From an uncultured Verrucomicrobiota bacterium (GTDB taxonomy: Bacteria; Verrucomicrobiota; Kiritimatiellia; Kiritimatiellales; Tichowtungiaceae), in NCBI GenBank assembly GCA_903831085.1, contig CAIKWE010000017.1, positions 1-48,833 of the forward strand: 48,833 bases of DNA, written 5' to 3'. The notes under the pieces were generated by a model that searched no databases, was not told where the DNA came from, and saw only the letters and a program-made list of their open reading frames with translations. Positions within the stretch are counted from its first letter, which is position 1; the number at the start of each line of letters is the position of its first letter. The position numbers were made by a program, and so were the translations under genes. Of the stretch, positions 1 through 45,649 are shown piece after piece.

Positions 1-363
1 CTCGTCGCCGAACACGGCGGCAAGGTGCCGGACAGTTTCCAATGTTTGGAAAAACTGCCGGGTGTCGGCCATAAAACCGCATCGGTGATCATGGCTCAGG
101 CGTTCGGCGTTCCGGCCTTTCCGGTCGATACGCATATTCACCGCCTCGCCCAGCGCTGGAAGCTGACCAGCGGCAAGAGCGTTGAGCAGACCGAAGCCGA
201 CCTGAAAAAACTCTTTCCGCCGGAACGGTGGAACAAGCTGCACATCCAACTGATTCTCTACGGACGCGAACACTGCACCGCCCGAGGGTGTGGCGGCACA
301 AAGTGCGATATCTGCCGCGCGCTGTTTCCTGATCGCAAAAGAACGGTTACCGTCAAAAAATAA
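1..363 (+). CDS. nth: Endonuclease III (Nth), 3' part; 5' end outside window
   Basis: DNA N-glycosylase/AP lyase for oxidised pyrimidines. The frame is open from base 1, so the start lies upstream; 120 residues are visible. The helix-hairpin-helix LPGVGHKTA carries the catalytic Lys (visible residue 25), and PVDTHIHR carries the catalytic Asp 18 residues later, the same spacing as K120/D138 in E. coli. The C-terminal iron-sulfur loop has four Cys spaced C-x4-C-x4-C-x2-C instead of the usual C-x6-C-x2-C-x5-C, so cluster binding is likely but the ligand set is unusual. Just before the hairpin, the dispersed palindrome at 37-51 encodes FQCLE where other Nth proteins have a variable stretch. Convergent with prfC, with 2 bp between the stop codons. 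Confidence 0.93.
   Translation, partial: LVAEHGGKVPDSFQCLEKLPGVGHKTASVIMAQAFGVPAFPVDTHIHRLAQRWKLTSGKSVEQTEADLKKLFPPERWNKLHIQLILYGREHCTARGCGGTKCDICRALFPDRKRTVTVKK
37..51. repeat. Iterated palindrome TTCCAR-N3-YTGGAA, copy 1
   Basis: Perfect copy, central N3 TGT. It lies inside nth and is read in frame 1 as F-Q-C-L-E. The sequence TTCCAATGTTTGGAA is identical to the copy at 45493 inside ribH. Confidence 0.9.
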
Positions 364-365
364 GA

Positions 366-1979
366 CTATTTGCCCGACGAGCGTTTAATGGCGGCGGGAA
401 GAGCGTGCAGACAGACGTCCGGATTGCGCTCACAGAAAAATTTCACAATCCATTCGGAATCAAACAGCATCACTTTACGGTTGGATGCGTCCAGCAGAAG
501 CCTACAACTGGGCGGAAGCATGGATTCGGTCACCACCGAGGCCGGTCCGGCGGATTCGTCCACCCAGCGGATGATCTTATACGGAGCCGGTTCGAGCCGG
601 GCGGTCGCACCGTATTCGTTTTCCAGCCGGTATTTGAAAACCTCAAATTGCAATACGCCGACCGCGCCCAGCAGCGGCGCATTCTGCGCCTGATCCGCGT
701 AGTGAAACGACTGCAACGCGCCTTCCTGCAGCAGATGCTTCACACCGGCTTGAAAACGTTTGTATTGCGCGGGAACCGGGTTATAGAGCATCGCAAAACA
801 CTCCGGAGCAAACTGCGGCATTTCGTGGTACACAATCGCCGGGTCTTCCGTCAGCGTGTCGCCGATGCCGAATCCGGCGTGTCCGACCAGCCCGATCACA
901 TCGCCGGGATACGCCGTATCCACCGTTTCGCGCTCCCGGGCAAAAACCCGGTGGGAGCTGGAAAGCCGCACCAGTTCGCCGGTGCGCGAATGGGTTACGC
1001 GCATATCGCGGGTGAAACAGCCGGAACAGATGCGCAGAAAAGCGATCTGGTCGCGGTGCTTCGGATCCATGTTCGACTGTATCTTGAAAATGAAGCCGGA
1101 GAATTTCGGATTTTCCGGATGAATTTTTTCAGCGCCGGAAAAGCGCGGCTGCGGCGCGGGCGCATAATCAACAATCGCGTCCAGCATCAGCTGAACCCCG
1201 AAATTATTGATCGCGCTGCCGAAAAATACCGGACTGAGATCGCCGGCCTGCACCTCTTTCAGATCAAAGAGTTCGCCGGCGGTATCCAGCATCTCCAGCT
1301 CGTTAATCAGCTCTTGATAAACTTCCGCCGGCATCCGATCGCGCACCTGTGAATCGGTCACGGAATGCAGCGCCACCGGTGCGCGAAAAGCGCCGTGCGC
1401 GGTACGTTCAAAGAAGTGCGCCTGCTTGGTCTGCCGGTCATACACACCTTGGAAATCGGGGCCGTTGCCGAGCGGCCAGTTCATCGCGCAGACCCGCAGT
1501 TGGAGTGTCTGCTCCAGTTCGTCGATCAGCGACAGCGCATTGCGCGACGGACGATCGAGCTTGTTCATGAAGGTAAAAATCGGAATGCCGCGCATCCGGC
1601 AGATTTCAAACAGCTTGCGCGTCTGGCTTTCAATCCCCTTGGCCGCGTCGATCACCATCACCACCGAATCCACCGCCATCAGCACACGATAGGTGTCTTC
1701 GGAAAAGTCACGGTGACCCGGCGTATCCAGCAGATTGACGCAGCACCCGCGGTAGTCAAACTGAAGCACCGTTGAGGTGACGGAAATGCCGCGCTGTTTT
1801 TCCAGCTCCATCCAGTCGGATGTCGTAGCGCGCTGGTTTTTGCGCGCCGTCACCGAACCGGCCAGCTGGAGCGCGCCGCCGTAAAGCAGCAGCTTTTCCG
1901 TCAGCGTCGTCTTACCGGCGTCCGGATGCGAAATAATCGCAATCGTGCGCCGTTTGGCAATTTCCTGTTCAAAACTCAT
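366..1979 (-). CDS. prfC: Peptide chain release factor 3
   Basis: GTPase that recycles RF1/RF2 from the ribosome after termination; cytoplasmic. 537 aa, close to the usual 525-535. The P-loop SHPDAGKTT is at residues 17-25, DTPGH is the G3 motif and NKLD is G4. The region ATTSDWMELEKQRGIS with the switch-I-like Thr is typical of RF3 and separates it from EF-G. Domains II and III follow to the C-terminus. Monocistronic on the minus strand, diverging from the arsenic operon. The 135 bp between the two ATGs holds a REP-like hairpin and the arsR promoter. Confidence 0.96.
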   Translation of the reverse strand: MSFEQEIAKRRTIAIISHPDAGKTTLTEKLLLYGGALQLAGSVTARKNQRATTSDWMELEKQRGISVTSTVLQFDYRGCCVNLLDTPGHRDFSEDTYRVLMAVDSVVMVIDAAKGIESQTRKLFEICRMRGIPIFTFMNKLDRPSRNALSLIDELEQTLQLRVCAMNWPLGNGPDFQGVYDRQTKQAHFFERTAHGAFRAPVALHSVTDSQVRDRMPAEVYQELINELEMLDTAGELFDLKEVQAGDLSPVFFGSAINNFGVQLMLDAIVDYAPAPQPRFSGAEKIHPENPKFSGFIFKIQSNMDPKHRDQIAFLRICSGCFTRDMRVTHSRTGELVRLSSSHRVFARERETVDTAYPGDVIGLVGHAGFGIGDTLTEDPAIVYHEMPQFAPECFAMLYNPVPAQYKRFQAGVKHLLQEGALQSFHYADQAQNAPLLGAVGVLQFEVFKYRLENEYGATARLEPAPYKIIRWVDESAGPASVVTESMLPPSCRLLLDASNRKVMLFDSEWIVKFFCERNPDVCLHALPAAIKRSSGK

Positions 1980-2114: not shown

Positions 2115-2441
2115 ATGAATAAACCGCTGAATGTCCTAAAAGCCCTTTCCGACCGCAACCGCCTGCGGGTTGTCGCGGCGCTGATGCATCAGGAAGAACT
2201 GTGCGCCTGTCACATCATCGAACTTCTGGAAGTGACCGGTGCCACGGCGTCGCGCCATATGGGACTGCTGATCCGCTCCGGTTTGGTGCAAAGCCGCAAG
2301 GCCGGGCGCTGGGTTCATTACCGACTGACCGCCGACTTCCCTATCCCGCTTTTCCAATGGTTGGAAACCGAATTGCAAACCGATCCCGGCATCAAAGCTG
2401 ACCGAAAAGCCCTAATCAAAATCACCGCCTGCAAACATTGA
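2115..2441 (+). CDS. arsR: ArsR-family metalloregulator
   Basis: Small winged-helix repressor (108 aa), expected to release DNA on binding As(III)/Sb(III). ELCACH at residues 28-33 gives C30-x-C32, equivalent to the ELCVC metal site of classical ArsR. The recognition helix follows (ATASRHMGLLIRSGLV), then a wing (GRWVHYRL). First gene of the arsenic operon and probable autoregulator through the inverted repeat at 2085-2100. The ATG sits 7 nt after the -10 box; AAGGG lies 4 nt upstream as the only Shine-Dalgarno-like sequence. Near the C-terminus the iterated palindrome (2352-2366) encodes FQWLE. Confidence 0.92.
   Translation: MNKPLNVLKALSDRNRLRVVAALMHQEELCACHIIELLEVTGATASRHMGLLIRSGLVQSRKAGRWVHYRLTADFPIPLFQWLETELQTDPGIKADRKALIKITACKH
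2352..2366. repeat. Iterated palindrome, copy 2
   Basis: Perfect copy TTCCAATGGTTGGAA inside arsR, read as F-Q-W-L-E. Apart from strand orientation it is the same sequence as the copy at 43812 in ribD. Confidence 0.9.
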
Positions 2442-4165: not shown

Positions 4166-4860
4166 ACGAACTGTTTACCCAGCTGACCCGCGCCGTGGAA
4201 GGCGCGCCGCTGATCGCTCTGAGTGCCGCGCTGATCTGGGGCATTCTGAGTATTCTGCTCAGCCCGTGCCACCTTGCATCCATTCCGCTGATTATCGGCT
4301 TTATTGACGAACAGGGCCGCATTTCCACCAGACGCGCCTTTTGGATTTCCCTGCTGTTTGCCACCGGCATTCTGATCACTATTGCTGCCATCGGCGGGCT
4401 GACCGCCGCCGCCGGACGGATCATGGGAGACCTCGGGCCGTATGCGAATTATTTCATCGCGCTCATTTTCTTCATGGTCGGCCTGCATCTACTGGGCGTA
4501 ATTCCAATGCCTGGAAGCGGCCCCGGTCAGGTCAGAATGAAACAGCGCGGCGCGCTGGCGGCCTTTGTCCTCGGACTGCTCTTCGGCATTGCACTTGGCC
4601 CCTGCACGTTCGCTTTTATGGCACCGCTACTCGGCATTGTCTTCAAAACCGGCGCCGGACATCCGGTTTACGCCGGAAGCCTGCTTTTCCTTTATGGCAT
4701 CGGCCATTGCGCTGTGATTGTGCTGGCAGGAACCTTCACCGAAGTCGTCCAGCACTATCTGAACTGGAACGAAAAATCCAAAGGCTCACTCATCCTCAAA
4801 AAAATCTGCGGCCTGCTGGTGCTGATGGGCGGCCTCTATCTGATTTACACAACCGTTTAA
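4162..4860 (+). CDS. CcdA/DsbD-like transmembrane thiol-disulfide transporter
   Basis: About 232 aa and six hydrophobic segments. The two halves carry the paired cysteine motifs of the CcdA family: SPCHLASIP (C36) and GPCTFAFMAP (about residue 148). Such proteins move reducing equivalents from cytoplasmic thioredoxin across the membrane. Start set at GTG 4162, which overlaps the upstream stop as GTGA and has GGAG 8 nt upstream; the longer in-frame extension to 4138 would overlap the thioredoxin gene. It carries the iterated palindrome at 4502, read as IPMPG. With the two thioredoxins it forms a redox relay inside an arsenic operon. Confidence 0.87.
   Translation: MNELFTQLTRAVEGAPLIALSAALIWGILSILLSPCHLASIPLIIGFIDEQGRISTRRAFWISLLFATGILITIAAIGGLTAAAGRIMGDLGPYANYFIALIFFMVGLHLLGVIPMPGSGPGQVRMKQRGALAAFVLGLLFGIALGPCTFAFMAPLLGIVFKTGAGHPVYAGSLLFLYGIGHCAVIVLAGTFTEVVQHYLNWNEKSKGSLILKKICGLLVLMGGLYLIYTTV
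4502..4516. repeat. Iterated palindrome, copy 3
   Basis: Perfect copy TTCCAATGCCTGGAA in the CcdA-like gene, read in frame 2 as I-P-M-P-G. Confidence 0.88.
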
Positions 4861-5304: not shown

Positions 5305-6374
5305 GTGAAAGTATTACTAAGCGACTGTCGTTTCTGGATCGGTTTCTGACGCTTTGGATTTTTTTGGCGATGGGCATCGGGGTTCTGCTCGGCTATTTTG
5401 TTCCAGCCTTTGGAAACTGGATTGGCTCCCTGCGCCCAGCGGGAACGCAAACCAGCATACCGATTGCCGTCGGCCTCGTTCTGATGATGTTTCCTCCGCT
5501 GGCGAAGGTGAAGTATGAGGAACTGGGCGATGTATTCCGCGACCGCAAGATCCTCGGACTGAGTCTGCTTCAGAACTGGGTGGTCGGGCCGATTCTTATG
5601 ACGGCGCTGGCCGTTGTGTTTCTGCACGACCGGCCGGAATTTATGATCGGGCTCATTATGATCGGACTGGCGCGGTGCATCGCGATGGTGATCGTGTGGA
5701 ACGATCTGGCAAAAGGCGACACGGAATATTGCGCCGGACTAGTGGCGTTCAATTCAATTTTTCAGGTGTTCTTCTACAGTCTCTATGCCTGGCTGTTCGT
5801 CACGAAACTTCCGCCTTTGCTCGGACTTTCCGGCGCTGTGGTGAATGTGACGATCCGGCAAATTGCGGTAAGCGTGTTTATTTATCTGGGTATTCCGTTC
5901 ATCGCCGGAATGCTCACCCGATTTTTCCTGATAAAGGCGAAGGGCAAAGAATGGTACCACACGCAATTTATCCCGAAGATCTCGCCGATCACACTGATCG
6001 CCCTGCTCTTCACCATCGTGGTGATGTTTTCCATGCAGGGACAAAAAATAATCGCCCGGCCCGGCGATGTGGTTTTGATCGCCGTGCCGCTGCTGATTTA
6101 TTTCGTGGTGATGTTCCTGTTGAGTTTCTGGATGAGCGCCAAAGCGGGCGCCAACTACGCCAAGTCGGCAACCCTTTCCTTCACTGCGGCCAGCAATAAC
6201 TTTGAGCTGGCGATTGCCGTCGCGGTGGGTGTGTTCGGAATCAACCACGGCGCGGCGTTCGCCGCTGTGATCGGGCCGTTGGTGGAAGTGCCGGTGTTGA
6301 TCGGACTGGTGAACGTGGCGCTGTATTTCCGAAAAAAGTATTTCGACAAACAACCCGTTCTGCCTGCCGCTTGA
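5301..6374 (+). CDS. acr3: Arsenite efflux transporter, ACR3 family
   Basis: 357 aa, about ten membrane segments. The conserved ACR3 block [16 protein letters not shown] carries the Cys needed for arsenite transport in this family; [20 protein letters not shown] near the C-terminus is also diagnostic. Exports As(III) made by ArsC. Last gene of the operon. The stop lies 5 bp from the convergent stop of the lptG-like gene and no terminator hairpin is visible. The iterated palindrome at 5401 encodes VPAFG. Confidence 0.95.
5401..5415. repeat. Iterated palindrome, copy 4
   Basis: Perfect copy TTCCAGCCTTTGGAA in acr3, read in frame 2 as V-P-A-F-G. Confidence 0.88.
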
Positions 6375-8755: not shown

Positions 8756-9461
8756 TGGCTTTCCAGGCTTCTTCGGCGGTGTCGCAGAAGGTGATCAGGT
8801 TCAAATCATTCGGGCCGATCAGGCCGCATTCGGCCATGTAATTCCAGTCCACGATCCGTTTCCAATATTCGGAACCAACCAATACAACCGGCATTGGCTC
8901 GACCTTTCCGGTCTGGATCAGGGTGAGTGCTTCGAACAGTTCATCGAACGTTCCGAAGCCGCCGGGGAAAATACAGACCGCCTTGGCGCGCAGCATGAAG
9001 TGCATCTTCCGCATGCTGAAATAATGAAACTGAAAGCAAAGCTCTTCGGTGACATATGGGTTAGGTTTCTGTTCGTGCGGCAGGGTGATGTTGAGTGAAA
9101 TGGACTTACAACCCACGTCGTGTGCGCCGCGGTTGCCCGCCTCCATAACTCCGCCACCGCCACCGGTGATGATAACATATTCGCATTCATGGCTGGTCTG
9201 GCAGGTCGTGCTGACCATCCGCGCCAGTTTGCGCGCCTCTTCATAAAACGGGGTCAGTTCGGCCAGCTTACGGTTTTTACACGCGGCCGAATTTTCAGGC
9301 GCTGGAATCCGTGCACTGCCGAAGAGCACGATGGTGGATTTGATCTTCTCTTTTTGCATCATCACTTCGGGATGAAGATATTCGAGCTGGAGCCGCACCG
9401 GGCGGCAATGTTCGCTGTTTAAAAACGGGACATTCTCATAGGCCATCGGCGGATTTTTCAT
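8727..9461 (-). CDS. LOG-family Rossmann protein (TIGR00730; nucleoside-5'-monophosphate phosphoribohydrolase-like)
   Basis: About 244 aa. Carries the family motif PGGFGTFDELFEALT, and the phosphate-binding region YVIITGGGGGVMEAGNRGA. Family members hydrolyse nucleotide 5'-monophosphates such as AMP or cytokinin nucleotides; the physiological role in bacteria is often unclear. Start placed at ATG 9461 (MKNPPMAYEN) because TAGGAGA lies 6 nt upstream. The ribosome site sits against an imperfect inverted repeat (9474-9561). A degenerate copy of the iterated palindrome lies at 8860-8874. Confidence 0.85.
   Translation of the reverse strand: MKNPPMAYENVPFLNSEHCRPVRLQLEYLHPEVMMQKEKIKSTIVLFGSARIPAPENSAACKNRKLAELTPFYEEARKLARMVSTTCQTSHECEYVIITGGGGGVMEAGNRGAHDVGCKSISLNITLPHEQKPNPYVTEELCFQFHYFSMRKMHFMLRAKAVCIFPGGFGTFDELFEALTLIQTGKVEPMPVVLVGSEYWKRIVDWNYMAECGLIGPNDLNLITFCDTAEEAWKAINSFYASAG
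8860..8874. repeat. Iterated palindrome, one mismatch
   Basis: TTCCAATATTCGGAA inside the LOG-family gene; the same variant recurs exactly at 29651-29665. The only mismatch is T to C in the right half. On the coding (minus) strand it is read in the third frame (S-E-Y-W), unlike the perfect copies. Confidence 0.65.
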
Positions 9462-9585: not shown

Positions 9586-10692
9586 ATGAAAACGGTTGCC
9601 TACTACATTACCGCCCATGGCTACGGACACGGCGCACGCTCCTGCGACGTTCTGCGCGCCCTGCACCGGCTCTATCCGGAACAGCCGGTGATTGTGACGA
9701 CCGACCTGCCGCGCGACTTCTTGAACAGCCGCCTCGCAGGTTGCGATAATCTGACATTCCGAAACGGCGCATTCGATGTCGGCCTCGTCCAGAAGGATTC
9801 TCTGCAAAGCGATCTTTTCCAAACCTTGGAAAAACTGGAAGCGCTCTATGCCCGTGAGGAGGAATTGATCGAACAGGAGCAGCGATTTATCGCCGCAAAT
9901 GATATCGCGGTTGTCGCCGCTGATATTCCCGCCATTCCGCTGGCCGCCGCACAGCGCGCGGACATTCCGAATATCGCCATCGGTAATTTTTCATGGGACT
10001 GGATTTATGAAGCCTATGTTCCGCAGAATCCCCGCTGGGCGTTTTTCGTCGAAAAGTTCCGCACCGTTTATGCGAAGACGGACCTGCTGTTGCGCCTGCC
10101 GTTCGCACCGCCCATGGAACAGTTCCCGAACCGGACAGACATCCCCCTGCTCGCTTCACCGGGCATCTCCCGCCGCAATGAAATGGCACATATATCGTAT
10201 TACGATATATGCCCCGATCCAAAGAAACTGTGGGTTCTACTTTCGTTCACATCGCTCGATTTAAACTTCCAGGCCTTGGAAAATATCCGTGCACTGTGTG
10301 ACCGGTACGAGTTTTTCTGTGTTGAACCGCTTCAATTCGAAAACTCCTGCATCCATTCAATAAGCCGCAACGCAGTTGCTTTTGCCGACATTCTGGCATC
10401 GTGCGACGTTGTCGTCAGCAAGCCGGGCTTCGGGCTGGTCTCGGAGTGCATTGTGAACCATAAGCCGTTGATCTTTGCCGACCGCGGCGATTTTGCTGAA
10501 TATCCTTATCTCGTCGAAGGGATTGATAAATATCTGCGAAACGTCCACGTTCCGTCCGAACAGCTCTATGCCGGAGATCTTTTCCAGGCATTGGAAAAAA
10601 TTAAATCCGCGCCGGAACCTGCCAGTCATCTGGCCTCGGGCGGCGCGGAAATGATCGCGCGGGAACTTTTGAATCACGCCAGATACGCATGA
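9586..10692 (+). CDS. GT-B glycosyltransferase-like protein (arabinokinase ARA1 N-domain type)
   Basis: 368 aa. The N-terminus VAYYITAHGYGHGARS is the glycine-rich HGxGHxxR loop of MurG/GT28-like enzymes. NFSWDWIYEAYV and the late SKPGFGLVSECIVNHKP resemble the N-terminal domain of plant L-arabinokinase and related bacterial proteins, whose donor and acceptor are not established. No signal peptide, so cytoplasmic. No Shine-Dalgarno sequence is visible before the ATG. Three perfect copies of the iterated palindrome (9817, 10267, 10582) each encode FQxLE, and a 23-bp perfect palindrome lies at 10189-10211. The 3' end is duplicated at 13248-13340. Function is inferred from fold only. Confidence 0.75.
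   Translation: MKTVAYYITAHGYGHGARSCDVLRALHRLYPEQPVIVTTDLPRDFLNSRLAGCDNLTFRNGAFDVGLVQKDSLQSDLFQTLEKLEALYAREEELIEQEQRFIAANDIAVVAADIPAIPLAAAQRADIPNIAIGNFSWDWIYEAYVPQNPRWAFFVEKFRTVYAKTDLLLRLPFAPPMEQFPNRTDIPLLASPGISRRNEMAHISYYDICPDPKKLWVLLSFTSLDLNFQALENIRALCDRYEFFCVEPLQFENSCIHSISRNAVAFADILASCDVVVSKPGFGLVSECIVNHKPLIFADRGDFAEYPYLVEGIDKYLRNVHVPSEQLYAGDLFQALEKIKSAPEPASHLASGGAEMIARELLNHARYA
9817..9831. repeat. Iterated palindrome, copy 5
   Basis: Perfect copy TTCCAAACCTTGGAA in the glycosyltransferase gene, read as F-Q-T-L-E. Confidence 0.9.
10189..10211. repeat. 23-bp perfect palindrome in glycosyltransferase gene
   Basis: Eleven-base arms CATATATCGTA and TACGATATATG flank a single T. The sequence is AT-rich against a GC-rich gene and encodes HISYYDIC. 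It is unrelated to the iterated palindrome family. Confidence 0.8.
10267..10281. repeat. Iterated palindrome, copy 6
   Basis: Perfect copy TTCCAGGCCTTGGAA, read as F-Q-A-L-E in the glycosyltransferase gene. This copy is fully self-complementary except for the central base. Confidence 0.9.
10582..10596. repeat. Iterated palindrome, copy 7
   Basis: Perfect copy TTCCAGGCATTGGAA, read as F-Q-A-L-E close to the glycosyltransferase C-terminus, just upstream of the segment duplicated at 13248. Confidence 0.9.
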
Positions 10693-10837: not shown

Positions 10838-13162
10838 TCATTCACTCATACGAACATCAATCTTGTAGAAGCATTTGCTGGCGGCGCTACGGACGCTATC
10901 CGTGATCGCTCCACCGGTATAATTGGTTTGCAGGGTTTGGAAACCATTCATCAGATTGGTTGACCAGTAAACATTATAAACCCGACCGGAAACCGCGTTC
11001 CATTGGATGAGGTTCCGCGAGTGATTTGTAATGCCAAAACGGGCCGATGAATTAGTCGGATTCAAGCCCGCGACATAGGCTTGGATCACGGTGTTGACGC
11101 GATTAGAGCAAACCGCATTCGGATTAACTCCCGTGCCGCCAAAATGCTGAAGCTCCCACCAGTCCGGCAGGCCGTTGCCGTCACCGTCATCTGTGCCTGT
11201 GCCCAAGACGCTGATCGTGTTGGTGCCGCTTGTCTTATCCGAGTTCACCGTCACCGTCCCGCTGTAGTTCGTTACAGCCACCGGCGCGAACGTCACCGTT
11301 ACATTCGTCGCCTTCCCCGCCGCGACCGTGCCGCTCCACGCCCCGCTGAAACAGGTTGGATACGTGATGTTCGTTACCGTCAGCGTTGTGTTGCCGCTGT
11401 TGGTAATGGTCAGCGTCGCGGTCGAGGGTTGCCCCGTCACCACACTTCCAAAACTCAGATTGCCGCTCAGACCGATGATCTTTGTCGGAACAGCAACCTG
11501 ATACAGGAAAGGCACCTCAATATCCGAAGAATTTTCCCAGCCGTCCAGCAGCCGGAAATGCAGGCAGTAGTTGGTGCCAGACTGAAGTTCCGGTCCATTG
11601 TAAGTCAGGGGGCTTGATGCCAATTCACCTGAGTCCCATATGTATCTGTGTGGGCCTTCGCTTGGCACAATGTTTAACTGAACCCTGCTCCAAAAACCGC
11701 CGTCGCTCCAGGAAAAAACAGGATGGGCATTCGTGATCGTGCTTCCGGCGGCGGGCGAGAGATTGGTGGCAAAATTTTCCACATATCCGGTGATGCGCAA
11801 AGTCTGCGTTACTATGTTGCTGGTTGTTTCATGGATGGTTAACGTGTACTCCGCTCCGATCGCCGGGCGATTTATATACCCAAATTGGGGAAAGAGATTG
11901 CTTGTGGACGCGCCCACGCTCCAAGAAACCCAGGATGGCAATTCATATTCGCTGCCTGACTTATAATTCAGACTGATGGTGTTGGTAAGACCGGGGCCGA
12001 AAACTTCCACGGAACTGATGTTGTTAGAGGGATCTTCCACCCTGGATACTAGCGTGTAGCTACCCGCGCTGTGGCTTGTGAAGAACATGACCGGATATTT
12101 ACTTTGGTCGCCGTACAGGAGCCATGTATCACCTTCTTTGCGAAATGTCTGCAACTCGATTTCACCGGTACCCCAGTGGATGACGGCAGTTGCCAACCCC
12201 GCTCCGGCGGGTAAGGGTGCGTCCATCGTATAGGACATAGGTTGCCAGTCCGGACTTAGCATGTCCGCAATCAGAGACATTTTGGTGTCGCCATCATTAA
12301 GGTACGCGTCGGAAATGCGCGCGGCGAAAAGTTCCGAATTTTGGGCGTTGTATGCTTCAATCGCGGCGGCGAAACCATTCCGGATGGCCAGTTCATCTTC
12401 CGGCGAGATACCCGTTTCCGGCAAGAGCCCCGTGTCGGTCACCGTGAAGTTGTCGGCGTACACGTCCGTTCCTGAATAGCTCATGCCGGTGAATGGTTCG
12501 CTGTCTGATGAGGAACCTAATGAACCGCCCACTGCAAAACGAAAAGTCGAACTCTCAGTCATTCCCCAACCACTGGGGACAGCATTCGAACCCAACGGAG
12601 TCCCGTTGTAATAGGAGGACAGCACCTTGGTCGTAGCATCAAATCTAATACTCACTCTTCCCTGCAGATTTGTAGTGTCAACCCAATCCTCATTACCCAC
12701 CTCGGTTCCATTCATCTGCATCGAACTATAATAACCGCGATAAGAACCTTGTGAGTCCGAGCCGAGGTCGAGATTCACCGTAAAGTTATTTTCATATACC
12801 ACTCGATCAGGGGGAACAACGGCGAGAAACATCTCGATTTCGTCGTTTTGTTGCAGCGACAAAGCGCCCACATGCACATCCGCCGAAACCTCCCAATTCG
12901 AGGTATAACTCCCGTAACTGTAAATCCAGGGTCTTACGATCCCTGCGCGAATGTCCACTGATGGGCTGTTGCCGCCAAACTGCAAATGTCCATTCGCTTC
13001 CAGCAAAGTAGCTGACGAACCGAAAGAATCATCAGAGCCCCATTTGGCCGTGTCTTTGGCATTATCGTTGAAGTCATCGCCAACGGTACCCGCCAGAACC
13101 GGCGTGAAAGCCAGCAGAACAAAACCCGCAACTACCGCGCCAAACAGTTTTACTGATTTCAT
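10838..13162 (-). CDS. Large secreted surface protein with LamG-like, choice-of-anchor D and GLPDWWEL-type C-terminal regions
   Basis: About 774 aa. The start at 13162 gives a signal peptide (KSVKLFGAVVAGFVLLAF, cleavage near PVLAG) and has AAGGAAGG upstream. The N-terminal 30-250 region is beta-rich and resembles LamG/concanavalin folds. Residues about 560-655 (LSFGSVVTGQPSTATLTITN) match the ASPM-SPD-2-hydin/choice-of-anchor D repeat. The C-terminal 110 residues contain DGDGNGLPDWWELQHFGG, then VSGRVYNVYWSTNL, a module common on Verrucomicrobia-type exported proteins and possibly a sorting signal. No catalytic residues recognised. Flanked by the glycosyltransferase and the remnant of a second copy of it. 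Confidence 0.75.
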   Translation of the reverse strand: MKSVKLFGAVVAGFVLLAFTPVLAGTVGDDFNDNAKDTAKWGSDDSFGSSATLLEANGHLQFGGNSPSVDIRAGIVRPWIYSYGSYTSNWEVSADVHVGALSLQQNDEIEMFLAVVPPDRVVYENNFTVNLDLGSDSQGSYRGYYSSMQMNGTEVGNEDWVDTTNLQGRVSIRFDATTKVLSSYYNGTPLGSNAVPSGWGMTESSTFRFAVGGSLGSSSDSEPFTGMSYSGTDVYADNFTVTDTGLLPETGISPEDELAIRNGFAAAIEAYNAQNSELFAARISDAYLNDGDTKMSLIADMLSPDWQPMSYTMDAPLPAGAGLATAVIHWGTGEIELQTFRKEGDTWLLYGDQSKYPVMFFTSHSAGSYTLVSRVEDPSNNISSVEVFGPGLTNTISLNYKSGSEYELPSWVSWSVGASTSNLFPQFGYINRPAIGAEYTLTIHETTSNIVTQTLRITGYVENFATNLSPAAGSTITNAHPVFSWSDGGFWSRVQLNIVPSEGPHRYIWDSGELASSPLTYNGPELQSGTNYCLHFRLLDGWENSSDIEVPFLYQVAVPTKIIGLSGNLSFGSVVTGQPSTATLTITNSGNTTLTVTNITYPTCFSGAWSGTVAAGKATNVTVTFAPVAVTNYSGTVTVNSDKTSGTNTISVLGTGTDDGDGNGLPDWWELQHFGGTGVNPNAVCSNRVNTVIQAYVAGLNPTNSSARFGITNHSRNLIQWNAVSGRVYNVYWSTNLMNGFQTLQTNYTGGAITDSVRSAASKCFYKIDVRMSE
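10928..10942. repeat. Iterated palindrome, one mismatch
   Basis: TTGCAGGGTTTGGAA in the C-terminal part of the secreted-protein gene. On the coding strand it reads F-Q-T-L-Q, the same frame as the FQxLE copies with the final codon changed. Confidence 0.55.
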
Positions 13163-16757: not shown

Positions 16758-16772
16758 TTACAATGTTTGGAA
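16758..16772. repeat. Iterated palindrome, one mismatch, intergenic
   Basis: TTACAATGTTTGGAA in the 18-bp gap between the convergent gspB-like and ACT-like genes. Confidence 0.5.
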
Positions 16773-23007: not shown

Positions 23008-23203
23008 TCGGTATTCCCTCCTGTTTTTGCAGCTTCCTCTAAGACCAGCTTCCGGCACCGCTGCACCTGAGCCAAAAGTTCCCCGCAAACTTTGCAGGAA
23101 ATATCCCCGCGGGGACACGGGCAGAGTAAACCACGACCAGCCTTAGTTCAATTTCCAAAGCCTGTAAAAAGCACAAATATTTTCACAGAGTCTGTACAAT
23201 GAA

Positions 23204-29649: not shown

Positions 29650-29650
29650 T

Positions 29651-29665
29651 TTCCAATATTCGGAA
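29651..29665. repeat. Iterated palindrome, one mismatch, intergenic
   Basis: TTCCAATATTCGGAA, identical to 8860-8874. It fills the 19-bp gap between the convergent nfo and PHP genes. Confidence 0.65.
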
Positions 29666-29668
29666 ACT

Positions 29669-35660: not shown

Positions 35661-36985
35661 AACCCCGCACCGAAATTGACTTTCTTGGTGAGAGGGAACT
35701 CCCCGCCGATGCGTTGTGGGGTATTCACACCGCTCGCGCCATAGAGAATTTTCCAATCCCTGGAAGTTCTGTGAACCCGCGACTGCTTCGCGCCTACGCT
35801 CAAGTCAAAAAAGCCTGCGCTCTCGCCAACAAAGAACTCGGATTTCTCTCCGATGCGAAAGCGGCAGCAGTTTTATCAGCATGTGACGAGTTTCAGGTTT
35901 CAGGTTTCAAGTTTCCTCTTTCTTCCCTTCAGGGCGGTGCCGGAACTTCCACCAACATGATGGTCAACGAAGTAATCGGGAATCTCGCCAAAGCGCACCC
36001 GATCGAACAGGTTAATCTGCACCAGTCCACCAATGACACCTATCCGACCGCGCTGAAGGTCGCCGCGATCGTTGGAGTCCGTGAACTGAGCGAAGCCATC
36101 GCAGAACTTCAGGGTGCCTTTCAAAAACAGGAAAAACGCTTTTCAAGCATTCCGATCCTTGGAAAAACAGAACTCGTTGATGCCGTACCTCTTACACTTG
36201 GCTCACAGTTCGCCTCCTTCGCCGAAGCCTTCGCCCGCGACCGCTGGCGTACTTTCAAGTGCGAAGAGCGTCTGCGCACCGTCAATCTCGGCGGAACCGC
36301 CATCGGCACCGGCCTTGCCGCACCGCGCAGTTATATTTTTCTTGTCGTCGAAAAACTGCGCGAGGTGACCGGTCTCGGTCTCAGCCGCGCCGAAAATATG
36401 GTGGAGGCCACCGCTAACGCCGATTGTTTCGTCGAAGTCTCCGGTATTCTGAATGCCGCAGCCGTTAATCTAATCAAAGTCAGCGACGACCTGCGCCGTC
36501 TTGCGATGCTCGGCGAAATCAAACTTCCAGCCGTGCAAGCCGGATCATCCATCATGCCCGGAAAAGTTAATCCGGTTATTCTGGAGTCGGTCATGCAGAT
36601 CGGCATCAAAGTGAAAGCGAACAACAACATTATCTCCGACTGTGCCTCGCGCGGTTCGCTCCAAATCTGCGAGTTCATGCCTCTATTAGCCGACGCCCTG
36701 CTCGAATCGATCGATCTGCTGATCGCCGCCGCGCAGATGCTGGCTAAACACGCCGTAGGAATTGATGCGGATCAAGGCAGATGTCTGGAGCGTCTGTATG
36801 CTTCTCCCGAAATTATCACCGCGTTTGTTCCAATGCTTGGATACGACCGTTGCTCTGAGCTGATCAAACAGTTCGAACAGCACGGTAAAGGAAACATCCG
36901 CGAGTTTTTGGAAAAAGAACTGGGTAAAGAGGCGGTTGAAAAAACGCTCTCCCCTCAGAATTTGATGTCGCTGGGATATAAATGA
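35657..36985 (+). CDS. aspA: Aspartate ammonia-lyase in the hydrogenase maturation cluster
   Basis: 442 aa fumarase/aspartase superfamily. GGAGTSTNMMVNEV, STNDTYPTALK and the signature SSIMPGKVNPV (about residue 297) identify the family; the clustering favours aspartase, which releases ammonia and fumarate from aspartate. It often accompanies hydEFG genes, and ammonia is relevant to assembly of the azadithiolate bridge of the H-cluster; the role here is inference. The loop DEFQVSGFKFPLSS is encoded by a tandem 7-mer (35890-35917). One perfect (35751) and two one-mismatch iterated palindromes (36150, 36828) are present. Confidence 0.87.
   Translation: MKPRTEIDFLGERELPADALWGIHTARAIENFPIPGSSVNPRLLRAYAQVKKACALANKELGFLSDAKAAAVLSACDEFQVSGFKFPLSSLQGGAGTSTNMMVNEVIGNLAKAHPIEQVNLHQSTNDTYPTALKVAAIVGVRELSEAIAELQGAFQKQEKRFSSIPILGKTELVDAVPLTLGSQFASFAEAFARDRWRTFKCEERLRTVNLGGTAIGTGLAAPRSYIFLVVEKLREVTGLGLSRAENMVEATANADCFVEVSGILNAAAVNLIKVSDDLRRLAMLGEIKLPAVQAGSSIMPGKVNPVILESVMQIGIKVKANNNIISDCASRGSLQICEFMPLLADALLESIDLLIAAAQMLAKHAVGIDADQGRCLERLYASPEIITAFVPMLGYDRCSELIKQFEQHGKGNIREFLEKELGKEAVEKTLSPQNLMSLGYK
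35751..35765. repeat. Iterated palindrome, copy 10
   Basis: Perfect copy TTCCAATCCCTGGAA in aspA; frame 2, F-P-I-P-G. Confidence 0.88.
35890..35917 (+). repeat. Tandem 7-mer repeat in aspA
   Basis: Four consecutive heptamers GTTTCAG, GTTTCAG, GTTTCAA, GTTTCCT. The period is not a multiple of three, so the encoded loop (QVSGFKFP) is not itself repetitive. Confidence 0.75.
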
Positions 36986-38199: not shown

Positions 38200-39605
38200 A
38201 AATCGATACCGAAGGGCTGAAATCCTTCATTCCCGAAAATGAAATTTTCCAATGGCTGGAAAAGACGAAAAATCCAACTCCGGAACGCGTCCGCGAGGTG
38301 ATTCAGAAGTCGCTGAACAAAAACCGGCTCGACCCCGAAGAAATGGCGGTATTGATCAACGCCGAAGATCCGGCGCTGGTGAATGAAATTTTTGAAGGCG
38401 CCCGCGAACTGAAGCAGCGCATCTACGGTAACCGTATCGTGCTGTTCGCCCCGCTCTACATCGGTAACGAGTGCATCAACAACTGCCAATACTGCGGTTT
38501 CCGCTGTACCAACAAGGAGGTTTCACGCAAAACGCTGACTATGCCTGAGCTCGACCGCGAGATCGAAGCGCTGGTGAAGCGCGGCCATAAACGGCTGATT
38601 CTGGTTTACGGCGAACACCCGCAATACGACGCACAATTCATCCACGACACCGTGGTGGAAGTTTACAAACAGAAACACGGCAACGGTGAAATCCGCCGCG
38701 TCAACATCAACGCCGCGCCGCTCGATATTGAAGGCTTTAAACTGGTGAAATCCGCCGGCATTGGCACCTACCAGATTTTCCAGGAGACCTACCATCAGGA
38801 AACCTACAAAACGATGCACCCGTCCGGCCCTAAGAGCAGTTATCTCTGGCGACTCCACGGACTCGACCGCGCGCAGCAGGCCGGCATTGACGATGTCGGC
38901 ATCGGCGCGCTGATGGGACTCTTTGACTGGCGTTTCGAGACGATGGCATTGCTTTATCACACGATTCATCTGGAAGAAAAATTCCACGTCGGGCCGCATA
39001 CGATCAGCTTTCCGCGCATCGAACCGGCCATCGGCACGAAACTGTGCGACAAACCGCCCTATGAAGTCAGCGACTATGACTTTAAGCGGCTGGTCGCCAT
39101 TCTGCGCCTTGCCGTGCCGTACACCGGACTGATCCTCACCTGCCGCGAATCGGTCGAACTGCGCAACGAAATCATTCAGTTCGGCGTTTCGCAGATTGAT
39201 GCCGGTTCGAACATCGGTATCGGTGCCTACTCGCAGGAAGATGAGGAGTCCTACAAAAAAAGCCAGTTCGTGCTCAACGACGGCCGTTCGCTTGATCAGG
39301 TCATCCGCGAGCTGTGCGAAGCCGACTTTATTCCCAGCTTCTGCACCGGATGCTACCGCCTCGGCCGCACCGGCGAGCATTTCATGGAGTTCGCCATTCC
39401 CGGCTTCGTCAAACGGTTCTGCACGCCCAACGCTGTGCTGACCTTTCTCGAATACATGGAGGACTACTCGTCGCCGGAAACCCGCAAGGCGGGCATGAAA
39501 CAGATTGAGCGCGAACTGGAACGGATGCCCGACGGCGACCAGAAGGTGAAGCTGCTCGAACGGATTGAGCAGATAAAAGCTGGCGACAGAGACCTTTACT
39601 TCTAA
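38196..39605 (+). CDS. hydG: Radical SAM HydG, tyrosine lyase for H-cluster CO/CN
   Basis: 469 aa. Radical SAM cluster CINNCQYC (about residues 92-99) and the HydG-specific C-terminal cluster CTGC-x22-C (FCTGCYRLGRTGEHF... to RFCTPN). HydG splits tyrosine to make the CO and CN ligands of the diiron subcluster. N-terminal residues contain FQWLEK from a perfect iterated palindrome at 38247. Overlaps hydF by ATGA. Confidence 0.96.
   Translation: MKIDTEGLKSFIPENEIFQWLEKTKNPTPERVREVIQKSLNKNRLDPEEMAVLINAEDPALVNEIFEGARELKQRIYGNRIVLFAPLYIGNECINNCQYCGFRCTNKEVSRKTLTMPELDREIEALVKRGHKRLILVYGEHPQYDAQFIHDTVVEVYKQKHGNGEIRRVNINAAPLDIEGFKLVKSAGIGTYQIFQETYHQETYKTMHPSGPKSSYLWRLHGLDRAQQAGIDDVGIGALMGLFDWRFETMALLYHTIHLEEKFHVGPHTISFPRIEPAIGTKLCDKPPYEVSDYDFKRLVAILRLAVPYTGLILTCRESVELRNEIIQFGVSQIDAGSNIGIGAYSQEDEESYKKSQFVLNDGRSLDQVIRELCEADFIPSFCTGCYRLGRTGEHFMEFAIPGFVKRFCTPNAVLTFLEYMEDYSSPETRKAGMKQIERELERMPDGDQKVKLLERIEQIKAGDRDLYF
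38247..38261. repeat. Iterated palindrome, copy 11
   Basis: Perfect copy TTCCAATGGCTGGAA near the 5' end of hydG, read as F-Q-W-L-E. Confidence 0.9.
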
Positions 39606-39624: not shown

Positions 39625-40719
39625 ATGACTTATCCGATTCTAGATAAAGTTGATGGTGATCAGGAACTGACGCCGGCAGAGATGAAGTCTCTGCTGGAGA
39701 TTTCTAATCCGGCGGAGTTACAGGCGTTGTACGACTGCGCCTACCGGGTGAAAGCCAAGTATGTCGGCAAGGTCGCCTATTTCCGCGGCATCATTGAGTG
39801 CAGCAATATCTGCATCAAGGACTGCTACTACTGCGGCATCCGCAAGGGCAACACGAACGTGAAGCGCTTCCAGATGGACGAAGAGGAAATGGTGCGCGAA
39901 GCGATCTGGGCGTTCGAAAACGAATACGGCTCGGTCGTGATTCAGTCCGGCGAGCGGCAGGATGCCGCCTATATCGAACTGATTGAGCGGGTGCTCCGTC
40001 GGATTAAAGCGGCCACGGACGGAAAACTCGGCGTTACGCTGTCGCTCGGCGAGCAGACGGAAGAAACCTACCGCCGCTGGCGCGAAGCGGGAGCGCACCG
40101 CTACCTGCTCCGCATTGAAACCACCAATCCGGCGCTGTACCGCCAACTCCATCCGGCGGATCACGATTTTGAAGCGCGCAAAAACTGCCTCGCCTTGCTC
40201 AGAAAGACCGGCTATCAGGTCGGCACCGGCGTGATGATGGGGCTTCCCGGCCAGACGATGGACGATCTGGTCGCCGACATCCTGTTCATGAAAAACCTCG
40301 ATATCGATATGGTCGGCATGGGGCCGTATATCCCGCACCACGACACGCCAATGGGAAAAGAAATTCCGCCGTACACCGGTGAACAGAAACAGGCCGCGCT
40401 GACGCTCGGACTAAAAATGATCGCCGTGACGCGCATTGTACTGAAGGACGTTAACATTGCCGCCGCCACCGCGCTCCAGGCCTTGGAACATGCCGGACGC
40501 GAAATGGGACTCAAATGCGGCGCGAATGTGATTATGCCCAATGTGACGGAGACCGAATACCGCCCGAACTATGTGCTCTACGACAACAAACCGTGCCTCG
40601 ACGAAAATTCATCCATGTGCCGCGGCTGCCTGACCCGCCGCATCCAGTCCATCGGCGAAACCATCGGCTTCAACCAGTGGGGCGACTCGAAGCATTTCGC
40701 CAAGCGAACAGCGGAATAA
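39625..40719 (+). CDS. hydE: Radical SAM HydE, H-cluster maturase
   Basis: 364 aa. Radical SAM motif CIKDCYYC (about residues 62-69), GGE-like region SGERQD, and the HydE pattern LRIETTNPALYRQLHP. HydE acts on the HydG product to build the dithiolate-bridged diiron unit. AGGA lies 10 nt before the ATG. Last maturation gene of the cluster; all three maturases are present and complete. A one-mismatch iterated palindrome (40474-40488) encodes LQALEH. Confidence 0.95.
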   Translation: MTYPILDKVDGDQELTPAEMKSLLEISNPAELQALYDCAYRVKAKYVGKVAYFRGIIECSNICIKDCYYCGIRKGNTNVKRFQMDEEEMVREAIWAFENEYGSVVIQSGERQDAAYIELIERVLRRIKAATDGKLGVTLSLGEQTEETYRRWREAGAHRYLLRIETTNPALYRQLHPADHDFEARKNCLALLRKTGYQVGTGVMMGLPGQTMDDLVADILFMKNLDIDMVGMGPYIPHHDTPMGKEIPPYTGEQKQAALTLGLKMIAVTRIVLKDVNIAAATALQALEHAGREMGLKCGANVIMPNVTETEYRPNYVLYDNKPCLDENSSMCRGCLTRRIQSIGETIGFNQWGDSKHFAKRTAE

Positions 40720-43708: not shown

Positions 43709-44727
43709 TATTTCTCCCTGACCGGTAAGGCCCGTATGAAAACATCTTTTCCGCATTTTTCCAAGGTCTGGAAATGCAAAAGCGGCATCTTGGCCAGCGG
43801 CCAGCCTTTTTTTCCAACCATTGGAACCCCGTCGCCGCCGATCAGCGACGGCGCAATAAACAGGGCAAACTCATCCACCAGACCGGCACGCACCAGCGAT
43901 CCGGCCAGCTCGCCGCCGCCTTCGCACAGCACATGCATCACGCCGAGCTTGCCGAGCTCGCGCAAAATTTTCTTTAGCGGACCGTTCATCACCAGCGTCC
44001 GCTCCGACGCTTCATCCGTCAGCACTTTAGCGTCCGCCTGAAGAGCTGAGCCGACCACTACCCGTAACGGCGCACGGCCTTTAGCCGGGCGCGGCAGAAG
44101 CGACGGATTATCGGCGCGCACGGTTCCTGCGCCGACCATGATCGCGTCAGCCGAACGGCGCAGTTCCTGCACTTTAGCCCGCGCCTGCGGACCGGTGATC
44201 CACTTTGATTTTCCGGAAGCATCGGCGATCCGGCCATCGAGGGTTGAGGCCAATTTGAGCGTCACATACGGCATGCCGGTGAGAATGCGTTTAGCAAACG
44301 GGGCAATCAGCGCCTCGGCTTCGGCGCGGCAAACGCCGATGATCACCTCGACACCGGCGCGGCGTAAAATCCAGATGCCCCGTCCGGCGTGAACTGGATT
44401 GGGGTCTTTTGCGCCAATCACCACTCGACGGATGCCGCGCGCCAGAATCAAATCCGTGCACGGCGAAGTGCGCCCAGTGGTTGAACAAGGCTCCAACGTT
44501 ACATACAGAGTTGCCGACTTTAGACTCCCTGCTCCATGCGCCCTGCTCCATGCCGCCAGACAATTGACTTCGGCGTGCGGGCCGCCAGCCTTTTTATGGA
44601 AGCCTTCGGCGATGATCTTCCCATTTTGAACCAGCACCGCGCCGACCGGCGGATTGGGCCGTGTCAGCCCTTCCCCGCGTTTTGCCAGCGCGAGCGCCCG
44701 TTGCATGAATGGTTCGTGAAGACTCAT
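43708..44727 (-). CDS. ribD: Bifunctional riboflavin deaminase/reductase
   Basis: 339 aa. N-terminal cytidine-deaminase-like zinc domain with HAEVN and PCSTTGRTSPC; C-terminal reductase domain (LKLASTLDGRIA, WITGPQAR, GAGTVRADNPSL). Two perfect iterated palindromes 53 bp apart near the 3' end encode VPMVG (43812) and FQTLE (43759). A 14-bp tandem duplication (44527-44554) enlarges the loop after HAEVNCLAA (about five residues longer than usual). Overlaps nusB by ATGA. Confidence 0.95.
   Translation of the reverse strand: MSLHEPFMQRALALAKRGEGLTRPNPPVGAVLVQNGKIIAEGFHKKAGGPHAEVNCLAAWSRAHGAGSLKSATLYVTLEPCSTTGRTSPCTDLILARGIRRVVIGAKDPNPVHAGRGIWILRRAGVEVIIGVCRAEAEALIAPFAKRILTGMPYVTLKLASTLDGRIADASGKSKWITGPQARAKVQELRRSADAIMVGAGTVRADNPSLLPRPAKGRAPLRVVVGSALQADAKVLTDEASERTLVMNGPLKKILRELGKLGVMHVLCEGGGELAGSLVRAGLVDEFALFIAPSLIGGDGVPMVGKKGWPLAKMPLLHFQTLEKCGKDVFIRALPVREK
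43759..43773. repeat. Iterated palindrome, copy 12
   Basis: Perfect copy TTCCAAGGTCTGGAA in ribD; on the coding strand F-Q-T-L-E. Lies 53 bp from copy 13. Confidence 0.9.
43812..43826. repeat. Iterated palindrome, copy 13
   Basis: Perfect copy TTCCAACCATTGGAA in ribD; on the coding strand frame 2, V-P-M-V-G. Confidence 0.9.
44527..44554. repeat. 14-bp tandem duplication in ribD
   Basis: CCCTGCTCCATGCG directly followed by CCCTGCTCCATGCC, 13 of 14 identical, inside the deaminase domain. Confidence 0.75.
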
Positions 44728-45170
44728 TGCGGAGTATTTGTGCGGGAAGGCCGGTCGAGTTCTTTCTGAATCCGGTCGAGCACACCGTTCACAAACCGGC
44801 CGGACTCTTTGCTGATATAGGCTTTGGCGATCTCGACCGCTTCATTGATGGAAACCACCGGCGGAATATCGCTGCGGAAAAGCATCTCGTAAACCGCCAC
44901 GCGCAGGATCGTACGGTCGAGCACGCCGAGACGGTCGACGTCCCAGTTCTGCGTGTACTTCGAAATCGTCCGGTCGACCTCGCGCCGTTTTTCGATCACG
45001 CCATGCACCACTTCGTTGACGTAGGTTGTGTCGCGTTCCGACGGTTTCTTCTCTTCGTCATTCCAGAAATCGGCCAAGGCTTGATCCAGATTGTCCGGAT
45101 TAAACTCCGTCTGAAACAGAAGCTGCACAGCCCATTCACGCGCCTGACGGCGCCCAGTCACTTTTGTCAT
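44724..45170 (-). CDS. nusB: Transcription antitermination factor NusB
   Basis: 148 aa all-helical protein that binds boxA RNA with S10 (NusE) in rRNA antitermination. KVTGRRQAREWAVQLLFQTEF and the C-terminal VSINEAVEIAKAYISKESGRFVNGVLD are the family blocks. Overlaps ribH and ribD by 4 bp each. The ribH-nusB linkage is common in bacteria. Confidence 0.95.
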   Translation of the reverse strand: MTKVTGRRQAREWAVQLLFQTEFNPDNLDQALADFWNDEEKKPSERDTTYVNEVVHGVIEKRREVDRTISKYTQNWDVDRLGVLDRTILRVAVYEMLFRSDIPPVVSINEAVEIAKAYISKESGRFVNGVLDRIQKELDRPSRTNTPQ

Positions 45171-45649
45171 TTAGAACCTTTTATCTTTCTCAAAACATTG
45201 GCGGTTTCAATGGCGGCCTCGGCGGCGTACCAGCCGCGACTCGTCCGGCTGCGGGTGCAGCGCGCCACCGCCTGCTCCCAGTTGCGCGTGCCGACAATTT
45301 CGTTGATGACCGGCACACCGTGTTCGCGGGCGATATCGAGTAGCGCGATGCCGGTCGACTCGCCGATCATCTGTGCGTGCGGCGTTTCGCCTTCCACCAC
45401 CACGCCCAGCGCGATCAGCGCGTCATATTCTTCGCTTTTCGCCAGTTCGTTGATCACTACCGGAATTTCGTATGCACCCGGCACATAAAAAATTCCAATG
45501 TTTGGAACTTTCGCGCCGTTTTCTTCCAGACATTGGAATGCATCGTCCGCCAGCTGTTGCGTCAGCTCCGCATTAAAGCGGCTGACCACGATCGCGAACT
45601 TCAGTCCGCTCGCATCCAGTTCTTTAGTCTGATTGAATCCTTTAGCCAT
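45167..45649 (-). CDS. ribH: 6,7-dimethyl-8-ribityllumazine synthase
   Basis: 160 aa. Condenses the RibBA and RibD products to the lumazine. AIVVSRFNAELT, VPGAYEIPVV, ALGVVVEGETPHAQM (catalytic His) and AAIETANVL are present. Two perfect iterated palindromes 31 bp apart encode FQCLE (45524) and VPNIG (45493) in helix 1 and the following strand. Follows ribBA by 8 bp. Confidence 0.95.
   Translation of the reverse strand: MAKGFNQTKELDASGLKFAIVVSRFNAELTQQLADDAFQCLEENGAKVPNIGIFYVPGAYEIPVVINELAKSEEYDALIALGVVVEGETPHAQMIGESTGIALLDIAREHGVPVINEIVGTRNWEQAVARCTRSRTSRGWYAAEAAIETANVLRKIKGSK
45493..45507. repeat. Iterated palindrome, copy 14
   Basis: Perfect copy TTCCAATGTTTGGAA in ribH; coding strand frame 2, V-P-N-I-G. 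Confidence 0.9.
45524..45538. repeat. Iterated palindrome, copy 15
   Basis: Perfect copy TTCCAGACATTGGAA in ribH; coding strand F-Q-C-L-E, 31 bp from copy 14. Confidence 0.9.

Follow-up and report, generated by a model that had tools for sequence, protein, structure and literature searches.

A helically phased palindrome iterated through genomes of the Kiritimatiellia, a candidate operator of a nucleoid-type protein

The window analysed here is the whole of a 48,833-nucleotide stretch from an uncultured bacterium of the Verrucomicrobiota, class Kiritimatiellia (assembly GCA_903831085.1, contig CAIKWE010000017.1), and its most conspicuous feature is the gapped palindrome TTCCARNNNYTGGAA, where R is a purine and Y a pyrimidine. 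A first-pass annotation, made from the letters alone, proposed that this motif is iterated genome-wide, and the question raised by the locus is what a palindrome repeated in this manner may be for. The reading favoured below, to which we assign a probability of roughly 60%, is that the sites are operators of a putative dimeric, cooperatively binding, nucleoid-type protein, rather than of a single-pathway regulator.

Abundance and anatomy of the motif

The window contains 15 exact sites, while dinucleotide shuffling gives a mean of 0.02 and a maximum of 1 (100 shuffles), and all 15 are located inside predicted genes. By allowing up to one mismatch in the ten half-site bases, 30 places are found where 1.55 are expected, so that chance alone should account for one or two of them. 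Checking revealed that the 15 perfect copies of the first-pass annotation are all correctly placed and that its 13 near-copies are all included in the set of 30, from which the places at 9293 and 34996 had been overlooked. Its claim that 28 copies out of 28 keep the purine and the pyrimidine was slightly overstated, since the rule holds at 29 of the 30 places and is broken at 34996.

The draft genome (2.14 Mb, 60 contigs) contains 546 sites, against 3 for a reversed control. In the sample of this genome used for detailed analysis, consisting of 342 kb without N and including the window, the real motif occurs 106 times, and permuted half-sites 0.34 times on average and 3 times at most. In a set of 387 genomes from the phylum, those with high counts all belong to the window's own class: congeners contain 162-927 sites and other class members up to 2106, while 0-16 are found in other classes. 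The proposed genome-wide iteration is thus borne out, and neither of the outcomes which had been named as speaking against it, a count near background or copies restricted to the window, was found. Site density is 255 per Mb in the window's genome and reaches about 390 per Mb in the densest ones, as calculated from rounded genome sizes. Of 193 genomes of the class, 47 contain arrays of three sites, while the control yields none. Relatives with near-zero counts exist within the same genus (G242, 3 sites, versus G256, 110) or the same family.

The array pattern was also found in at least 110 stretches of named GTDB contigs, where the titles among the matches listed are Kiritimatiellae, Kiritimatiellia, Kiritimatiellales, Kiritimatiellaeota, Lentisphaerae, Verrucomicrobia, Spartobacteria, PVC group and unnamed bacterium. 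The lone exception among these matches is L280, a 5.5-kb contig titled Bacteroidales bacterium Tb.RUG.143, which carries five sites spaced 22, 30, 31 and 22 bp at positions 662-781; its occurrence under the name of another phylum reflects either misbinning or transfer. In addition, the whole genome of G061, from another class of the phylum, contains the reversed control AAGGTYNNNRACCTT 55 times and the motif 0 times, an excess which is perhaps due to another iterated palindrome. A literature search by exact strings, generic spellings and topics, in which most subscription journals were not covered, retrieved no description of the motif.

The anatomy of the motif was defined on the 342-kb sample and on a second sample, totalling 1.22 Mb in 61 stretches of 20 kb each, taken from all along the congener G081, which consists of a single 3.88-Mb contig with 893 sites. 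Alignment of the sites from both samples gives the refined consensus wTTTCCARnSnYTGGAAAw, a two-fold symmetric sequence of 15 to 21 bp with a fixed gap. The T and A adjoining the core are present in about 70% of the aligned sites; the R and Y accompany 104 of the 106 copies with exact half-sites in the window's genome and 285 of the 299 in G081; and the central base is a G or a C in 97 of 104 sites of the former and in 263 of 285 of the latter. The gap is strictly fixed, as TTCCA-Nk-TGGAA occurs 299 times in G081 at k=5 and at most 10 times at every other k between 0 and 29. The choice between A and G is nearly independent in the two halves (in G081, AT 176, AC+GT 102 and GC 7, n=285).

These mixed combinations tell DNA symmetry from RNA pairing. 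On the sense strand of coding sites A-C and G-T occur 13 and 17 times in the window's genome and 42 and 26 times in G081, so that, over both samples, mismatched A-C (55) is as frequent as wobbling G-U (43); an RNA stem is therefore not selected and the symmetry belongs to the DNA. This disfavours an RNA hairpin or terminator, a possibility evaluated along with that of a mobile extragenic palindrome of the REP/BIME type, RAYT-borne, because arrays of intergenic palindromes would fit either. Spacers and middle bases are not copies of a single element, 61-64% of the sites are genic, and a comparison of the 6 kb around the largest array with Rfam gave no match. The Y1 transposase was found in 24 of 26 genomes, both rich and poor in the motif, with 11 matches in the motif-depleted G029, 10 in the motif-poor G267 and none in the motif-bearing G053. 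An origin of this kind is hardly credible.

The core CCA-N5-TGG had also been regarded as a possible methylation site, and the motif compared with HIP1. A HIP1-like product of mutation or repair, tied to a methyltransferase recognising that core, would be an iterated palindrome as well, and HIPs are reported to accompany methyltransferases and to vary between relatives from frequent to rare (PMC4390886), an unevenness that the present motif shares. Genome-wide over-representation, typical of HIPs, is found here too (546 versus 3); the density of 255 per Mb, however, lies under the 1000-2000 per Mb quoted for them in the same source, and HIP1 is an ungapped octamer, denser and methyltransferase-tied, for which the passages of that source at hand mention neither phasing nor peptide fossils. 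Enrichment of the present motif requires the TT/AA flanks plus the outer T/A, its sites are helically phased, and those within genes stay in place at 64-82% protein identity, with middle bases changed in 8 of 10 cases (see below). We regard this explanation as very improbable: the likeness to HIP1 holds for the iterated palindrome, failing for density and form, and methylation of the core is disfavoured as the primary role.

Helical phasing of neighbouring sites

Distances between sites are not evenly distributed, peaking at 21-22, 31-32, 41-42, 52-53, 62-63, 73-74, 83-84 bp and onward. The commonest spacing is 31-32 bp, but 21-22 bp and spacings of four and more turns are also used. The period is 10.45 bp: one site is separated from the next by a whole number of helical turns, which places both on one face of the DNA, up to about 300 bp and within genes as well. 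This phasing is new with respect to the first-pass annotation.

When one-mismatch sites are counted along with the exact ones, distances of 16-100 bp have a vector strength of 0.84 at 10.45 bp (191 pairs), those of 100-200 bp one of 0.65 (70 pairs) and those of 200-300 bp one of 0.54 (49 pairs), and phase-locking weakens past 300 bp. When both sites are genic, it reaches 0.90 at 16-100 bp (77 pairs). Restriction to nearest neighbours, which strips out most of the dependence within arrays, leaves a value of 0.74 at 16-300 bp (n=216, Rayleigh p ~1e-51). As a control, 29 permuted half-sites were processed by the identical rule; they yielded 914 sites and just 10 neighbour pairs, a thin control, with a vector strength of 0.34. 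The same phasing was evident in 142 loci from other families or from named contigs, fetched for holding sites or arrays, after known congeners and sites occurring in duplicate had been removed: the vector strength is 0.89 over 772 distances, and the centre is G or C in 584 of 586 cases.

Cooperative dimers require just such an arrangement, in which sites share a face of the helix while the number of turns between them varies. In the mechanism that we propose, a dimeric protein which recognises DNA sequence-specifically, at hundreds to thousands of chromosomal sites, would have TTTCCARnSnYTGGAAA as its operator. Its dimers, when located on the same face, would touch over distances of two, three, four or more full turns and hence bind cooperatively. 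They would be expected to bend, wrap or bridge DNA, and the protein would act chromosome-wide as a lineage-specific nucleoid-type (chromatin) protein, for which the intergenic arrays at about 31-bp spacing would be the strongest nuclei.

Phasing of this type is not foreign to known transcription factors. Lrp-type proteins bind, one dimer per site, to clusters in which sites spaced by two or three turns are aligned on a single face, wrap the DNA and also occupy non-promoter sequences (PMC2995911, PMC4046817), and the consensus of Sulfolobus Ss-LrpB is a 15-bp palindrome which may be read as TTGCA-N5-TGCAA, with 5-N5-5 geometry (PMC4046817). As far as the available parts of these sources go, the present motif is alike in its 15-bp 5-N5-5 form and in its clustering on one face at two or three turns, and unlike in its number of sites (hundreds to thousands, against tens for Lrp), in its TTCCA half-sites and in the use of four and more turns. 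Similarly, EspR of Mycobacterium tuberculosis binds at hundreds of places both within and between genes, frequently in clusters, and its dimers multimerise and loop DNA (PMC3315491). The motif resembles its sites in being clustered, both genic and intergenic, and not limited to promoters; the sequence differs, and the phasing and codon-level selection seen here are absent from the passages of PMC3315491 at hand.

These parallels bring up the main competing explanation, namely a global, Lrp- or EspR-like transcription regulator acting via the intergenic arrays, for which coding sites would be secondary, serving for titration or as roadblocks. The shared geometry and two- or three-turn spacing speak for it, as does the recurrence of 31-32 bp arrays in other families, in loci that were chosen for containing sites or arrays. 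The genomic distribution of the sites bears on it from both sides.

Sites within genes and their erosion in a sister lineage

Sites were located relative to genes called by a home-made hexamer caller. In the sample from the window's genome 63 of 104 sites are coding, 39 intergenic and 2 boundary-spanning; in G081 the corresponding figures are 181, 103 and 1, out of 285. Density is higher in intergenic than in coding DNA, 1.148 versus 0.209 per kb in the former sample (5.5 times) and 0.609 versus 0.185 per kb in G081 (3.3 times), as expected from a regulator. Convergent intergenic regions, however, are at least as rich in sites as divergent ones: they hold 8 of 33 classified intergenic sites in 19.2% of the intergenic bases of the window's genome, and 25 of 99 in 18.2% of those of G081. 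Since such regions should hold no promoter, sites within them are not promoter-bound. Coding sites are evenly distributed along gene tenths, with a depletion in the first 100 bases past the start in G081 (7 versus 22 expected).

Moreover, arrays were not seen to have any family of host genes as a recurrent neighbour: in 42 array loci, a set that includes some duplicate places, no family was present in three or more loci, and the 265 open reading frames adjoining arrays, some from duplicate loci, yielded four groups, composed of translated arrays, two sets of apparently spurious frames and one phage gene. Coding sites are, in addition, clearly selected in their own right, as described below. 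Taken against its geometry and intergenic density, these data make the regulator unlikely as the main role. The statement of the first-pass annotation that the motif is not an ordinary regulon was right.

The group of translated arrays deserves a comment. In seven loci (L200, L203, L209, L241, L258, L264, L266) open frames run over the arrays, and one of them reads FFQSLE..FFPIIG..SNDWK; this group is translated array DNA, and similar 'hypothetical proteins' may sit in databases. Short open frames of this composition should be taken as a warning in annotation. One array in G081 (L060, 12102-12314) contains five sites, four of them exact, within 213 bp, upstream of an open reading frame resembling mnmG/gidA by eye, and is located near the GC-skew minimum and a DnaA-box-like word.

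Within genes, the motif DNA drives protein sequence. Read in frame it encodes FQxLE, a peptide found 34 times in the sample from the window's genome, where 0.9 are expected from amino-acid frequencies, and all 34 are encoded by the exact motif codons, against 7 predicted by codon usage. In G081 the peptide occurs 104 times (3.2 expected), in 90 cases with the exact codons (18.5 expected). Six rearranged control peptides occur 0-4 times each.

Positions are conserved too. Comparison with G081, based on 63 pairs of reciprocal best genes of 72% median identity, revealed that 10 of 16 coding sites are exact at the aligned codons, although the middle bases are altered in 8 of these 10; the rate at which random 15-mers retain all ten outer bases is 4.4%. 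The retained sites lie in genes of 64-82% protein identity. Syntenic intergenic regions comparable per genome pair were 7 to 13, too few for a similar analysis.

A wider comparison is provided by the ribH locus, which was recovered from 29 of the 30 genomes in which it was sought. The window has two exact sites 31 bp apart inside ribH itself, TTCCAATGTTTGGAA at 45493..45507 and TTCCAGACATTGGAA at 45524..45538, the latter in frame FQxLE. The half-sites of the one at 45524 are kept in 8 of the 29 loci, three of which belong to another family (G159, G227, G247), and the match in G321 lacks the R; those at 45493 are kept in 2 of the 29. At the 3' end of ribD, adjoining the start of the riboflavin synthase gene, TTCCAAGGTCTGGAA at 43759..43773 is separated by 53 bp from TTCCAACCATTGGAA at 43812..43826. 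A counterpart of the former, placed by its distance from ribH and not by alignment, is present in 9 of 10 congeners fetched, and the 53-bp spacing is retained in all five congeners having both members. Six genomes with at most 11 sites have none in this locus.

The other exact sites of the window lie in a variety of genes. The sequence TTCCAATGTTTGGAA recurs at 37..51 in an HhH-GPD repair-glycosylase gene, in frame FQxLE, where the aligned G081 codons keep the site with a changed middle; TTCCAATGGTTGGAA (2352..2366), in the same frame, belongs to an ArsR-family gene and falls in an alignment gap in G081; and TTCCAATGCCTGGAA (4502..4516), in a DsbD_TM-family gene, is not kept in G081. An SBF-family transporter gene contains TTCCAGCCTTTGGAA (5401..5415), and three sites, TTCCAAACCTTGGAA (9817..9831), TTCCAGGCCTTGGAA (10267..10281) and TTCCAGGCATTGGAA (10582..10596), share the gene at 9586-10692, which matches no Pfam family at E 1e-5. 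Further on are TTCCAACCCTTGGAA (30699..30713) in a gene with Put_DNA-bind_N and CoA_binding domains, TTCCAGACATTGGAA again (31775..31789) in a gene with a Complex1_51K domain, TTCCAATCCCTGGAA (35751..35765) in a Lyase_1 gene and TTCCAATGGCTGGAA (38247..38261) in a radical-SAM/BATS gene.

One-mismatch sites are found both in genes and between them. The Lyase_1 gene just mentioned has two (36150..36164 and 36828..36842), and others fall within the genes at 8727-9461 (8860..8874), 10838-13162 (10928..10942), 24999-28136 (25358..25372) and 39625-40719 (40474..40488), an AAA ATPase gene (15674..15688) and the AP_endonuc_2-family gene at 28810-29649 (29431..29445). Intergenic ones are located at 16758..16772, between a gene end at 16755 and a gene start at 16774; at 23153..23167, in the region 23007-23234; and at 29651..29665, in the region 29649-29669. 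Another lies at 22512..22526, upstream of a polysaccharide lyase 8 gene, 32 bp from its partner at 22544..22558. The two places added to the first-pass list are TTTCAGGCGCTGGAA (9293..9307), which keeps R and Y, and TTCCACTTCATAGAA at 34996, which does not.

A different picture emerges from G029, a congener which is nearer to the window's genome than G081 is (median protein identity 87%, 28 pairs). Only 1 of 9 coding sites is kept there, equal to the control rate of 11%, and of the G081 sites 3 of 19 are kept (control 4.2%); conversely, of five G029 sites in genes common with G081, four are kept in the latter. In a 400-kb sample of G029 intergenic density is 0.068 per kb (4 sites), 17-fold under that of the window's genome (p ~1e-13), while coding density is just 2.7-fold lower. 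The peptide FQxLE is nevertheless still present 26 times (1.0 expected), with exact codons in 17 cases, a lower share than in the window's genome (p = 0.0002) or in G081 (p = 0.02). The simplest reading of these sequences is that the binding system would be gone from G029 and its intergenic sites eroded, the proteins retaining a peptide once imposed by the motif. G003 and G130 have similarly low whole-genome counts and a similar pattern at the ribH locus, from which their loss is deduced, intergenic loss having been examined in G029. In the locus tree, where the branch of G321 is very long, G130 stands apart from G029 and G003 (support 87 at the deciding node, 54-100 around it), a separation suggesting that loss happened more than once, presumably twice.

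Decay of this kind, as well as genome-wide density, placement in both coding and intergenic DNA and presence varying within genera, would also be compatible with a sequence for DNA uptake or self-recognition, by which site-bearing DNA is preferred or spared and whose sites decay once the system is lost. Some phage-like contigs do bear arrays, as if passing for self. By itself, however, such a function predicts neither phase-locking over about 300 bp nor a palindromic dimer site, and the ComEC family, which all 26 genomes tested possess whether they are rich or poor in the motif, does not discriminate and lends uptake no support. We consider this explanation quite unlikely.

Among the phage-like contigs, three stretches from two contigs contain three-site arrays and 16 stretches, those three included, contain pairs. 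A prophage-like locus of G081 (L079) has nine sites, three of them exact, with an array at 1356-1683, and an IMG/VR contig (L099) has seven, with an array at 2786-2977; in both cases a gene for the terminase large subunit lies about 0.5 kb downstream of the array. Three further IMG/VR contigs (L153, L154, L156) share a 154-aminoacid protein with motif arrays directly upstream of its gene. Phage arrays could represent the capture of a host protein, or a bait for it.

Candidate binding proteins and the nature of the system

Five protein families were evaluated as possible binders. Lrp/AsnC (PF01037) was detected in all 45 class genomes tested, whether rich or poor in the motif, and the putative recognition helix is not the same in the motif-rich G000, G032, G081 and G321; with this distribution and a variable helix, it is probably not the binder. 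AbrB and Abh of Bacillus bind paired TGGNA half-sites genome-wide, in coding and noncoding DNA; the corresponding AbrB/MazE-fold family (PF04014) was found in 25 of 45 genomes, being undetected in the motif-rich G081, G247 and G065, each with at least 893 sites, among others. LysR HTH_1 (PF00126) is present in 12 of 18 genomes, with none in the motif-rich G000 (94.6% complete) or G321, which speaks against a LysR-type operator (T-N11-A). A small HTH_1 protein is present in the motif-bearing G256 and G074 and not in their motif-poor congeners G242 and G267, nor in the window's genome. For HTH_3 (PF01381), the Xre family to which EspR presumably belongs, no pattern tracking the motif was seen, as judged from places and scores of unaligned proteins. 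Frames of about 200 amino acids related to Fis/NtrC HTH_8 (PF02954) occur in bearers and in G029 and G003 alike. Gene losses in syntenic blocks of G029, which cover a small part of the genomes, included no DNA-binding candidate.

Several observations weigh against a nucleoid-type protein. No binding protein was found, the presence of the five families tested never matching the motif. The origin-terminus gradient in G081, measured by distance from the GC-skew origin, is not significant (Spearman -0.18, p 0.17), and thus gives no direct indication of polarity at the scale of the chromosome. In contrast to a core nucleoid protein, the system can be dispensed with, as its erosion in G029 and, judging by counts, in G003 and G130 implies, and the 3 of 19 G081 sites kept in G029 mean that erosion within genes is incomplete. 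The motif itself is not without exceptions: in G081, 14 of 299 copies lack R/Y and 14 of 104 FQxLE peptides lack the exact codons, while the motif-bearing G127, G151, G256, G090 and G118 have no site in the ribH locus. Conservation between the window's genome and its relatives is based on 16 sites for G081 and on 9 for G029. Finally, regulation by arrays and chromatin structure are not separable by sequence alone.

Helical phasing, sites within genes and sites in convergent intergenic regions nevertheless favour, among the roles listed in the first-pass annotation, that of a site for a chromosome-organising protein. Of its interpretation, the iterated motif and the absence of an ordinary regulon stand and the chromosomal protein is favoured; methylation of the core is disfavoured as the primary role, and the likeness to HIP1 does not extend to density or form. 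More broadly, and at somewhat less than even odds, we suggest a previously undescribed, sequence-specific bacterial chromatin system, with phase-locked operators along entire chromosomes in many families of the class, selection strong enough to imprint FQxLE on unrelated proteins, and losses which leave FQxLE fossils with drifting codons in sister lineages.

If this is true, these bacteria would possess a natural chromatin code, in which site position, spacing and loss are readable from DNA alone, and one genus would hold both bearers and a lineage that has apparently lost the system. Selection at the DNA level would override protein sequence at genome scale. Spacing by turns versus half-turns would provide a ready assay of cooperativity between bound proteins, and a single binding protein is predicted, which should be recoverable by DNA pull-down.

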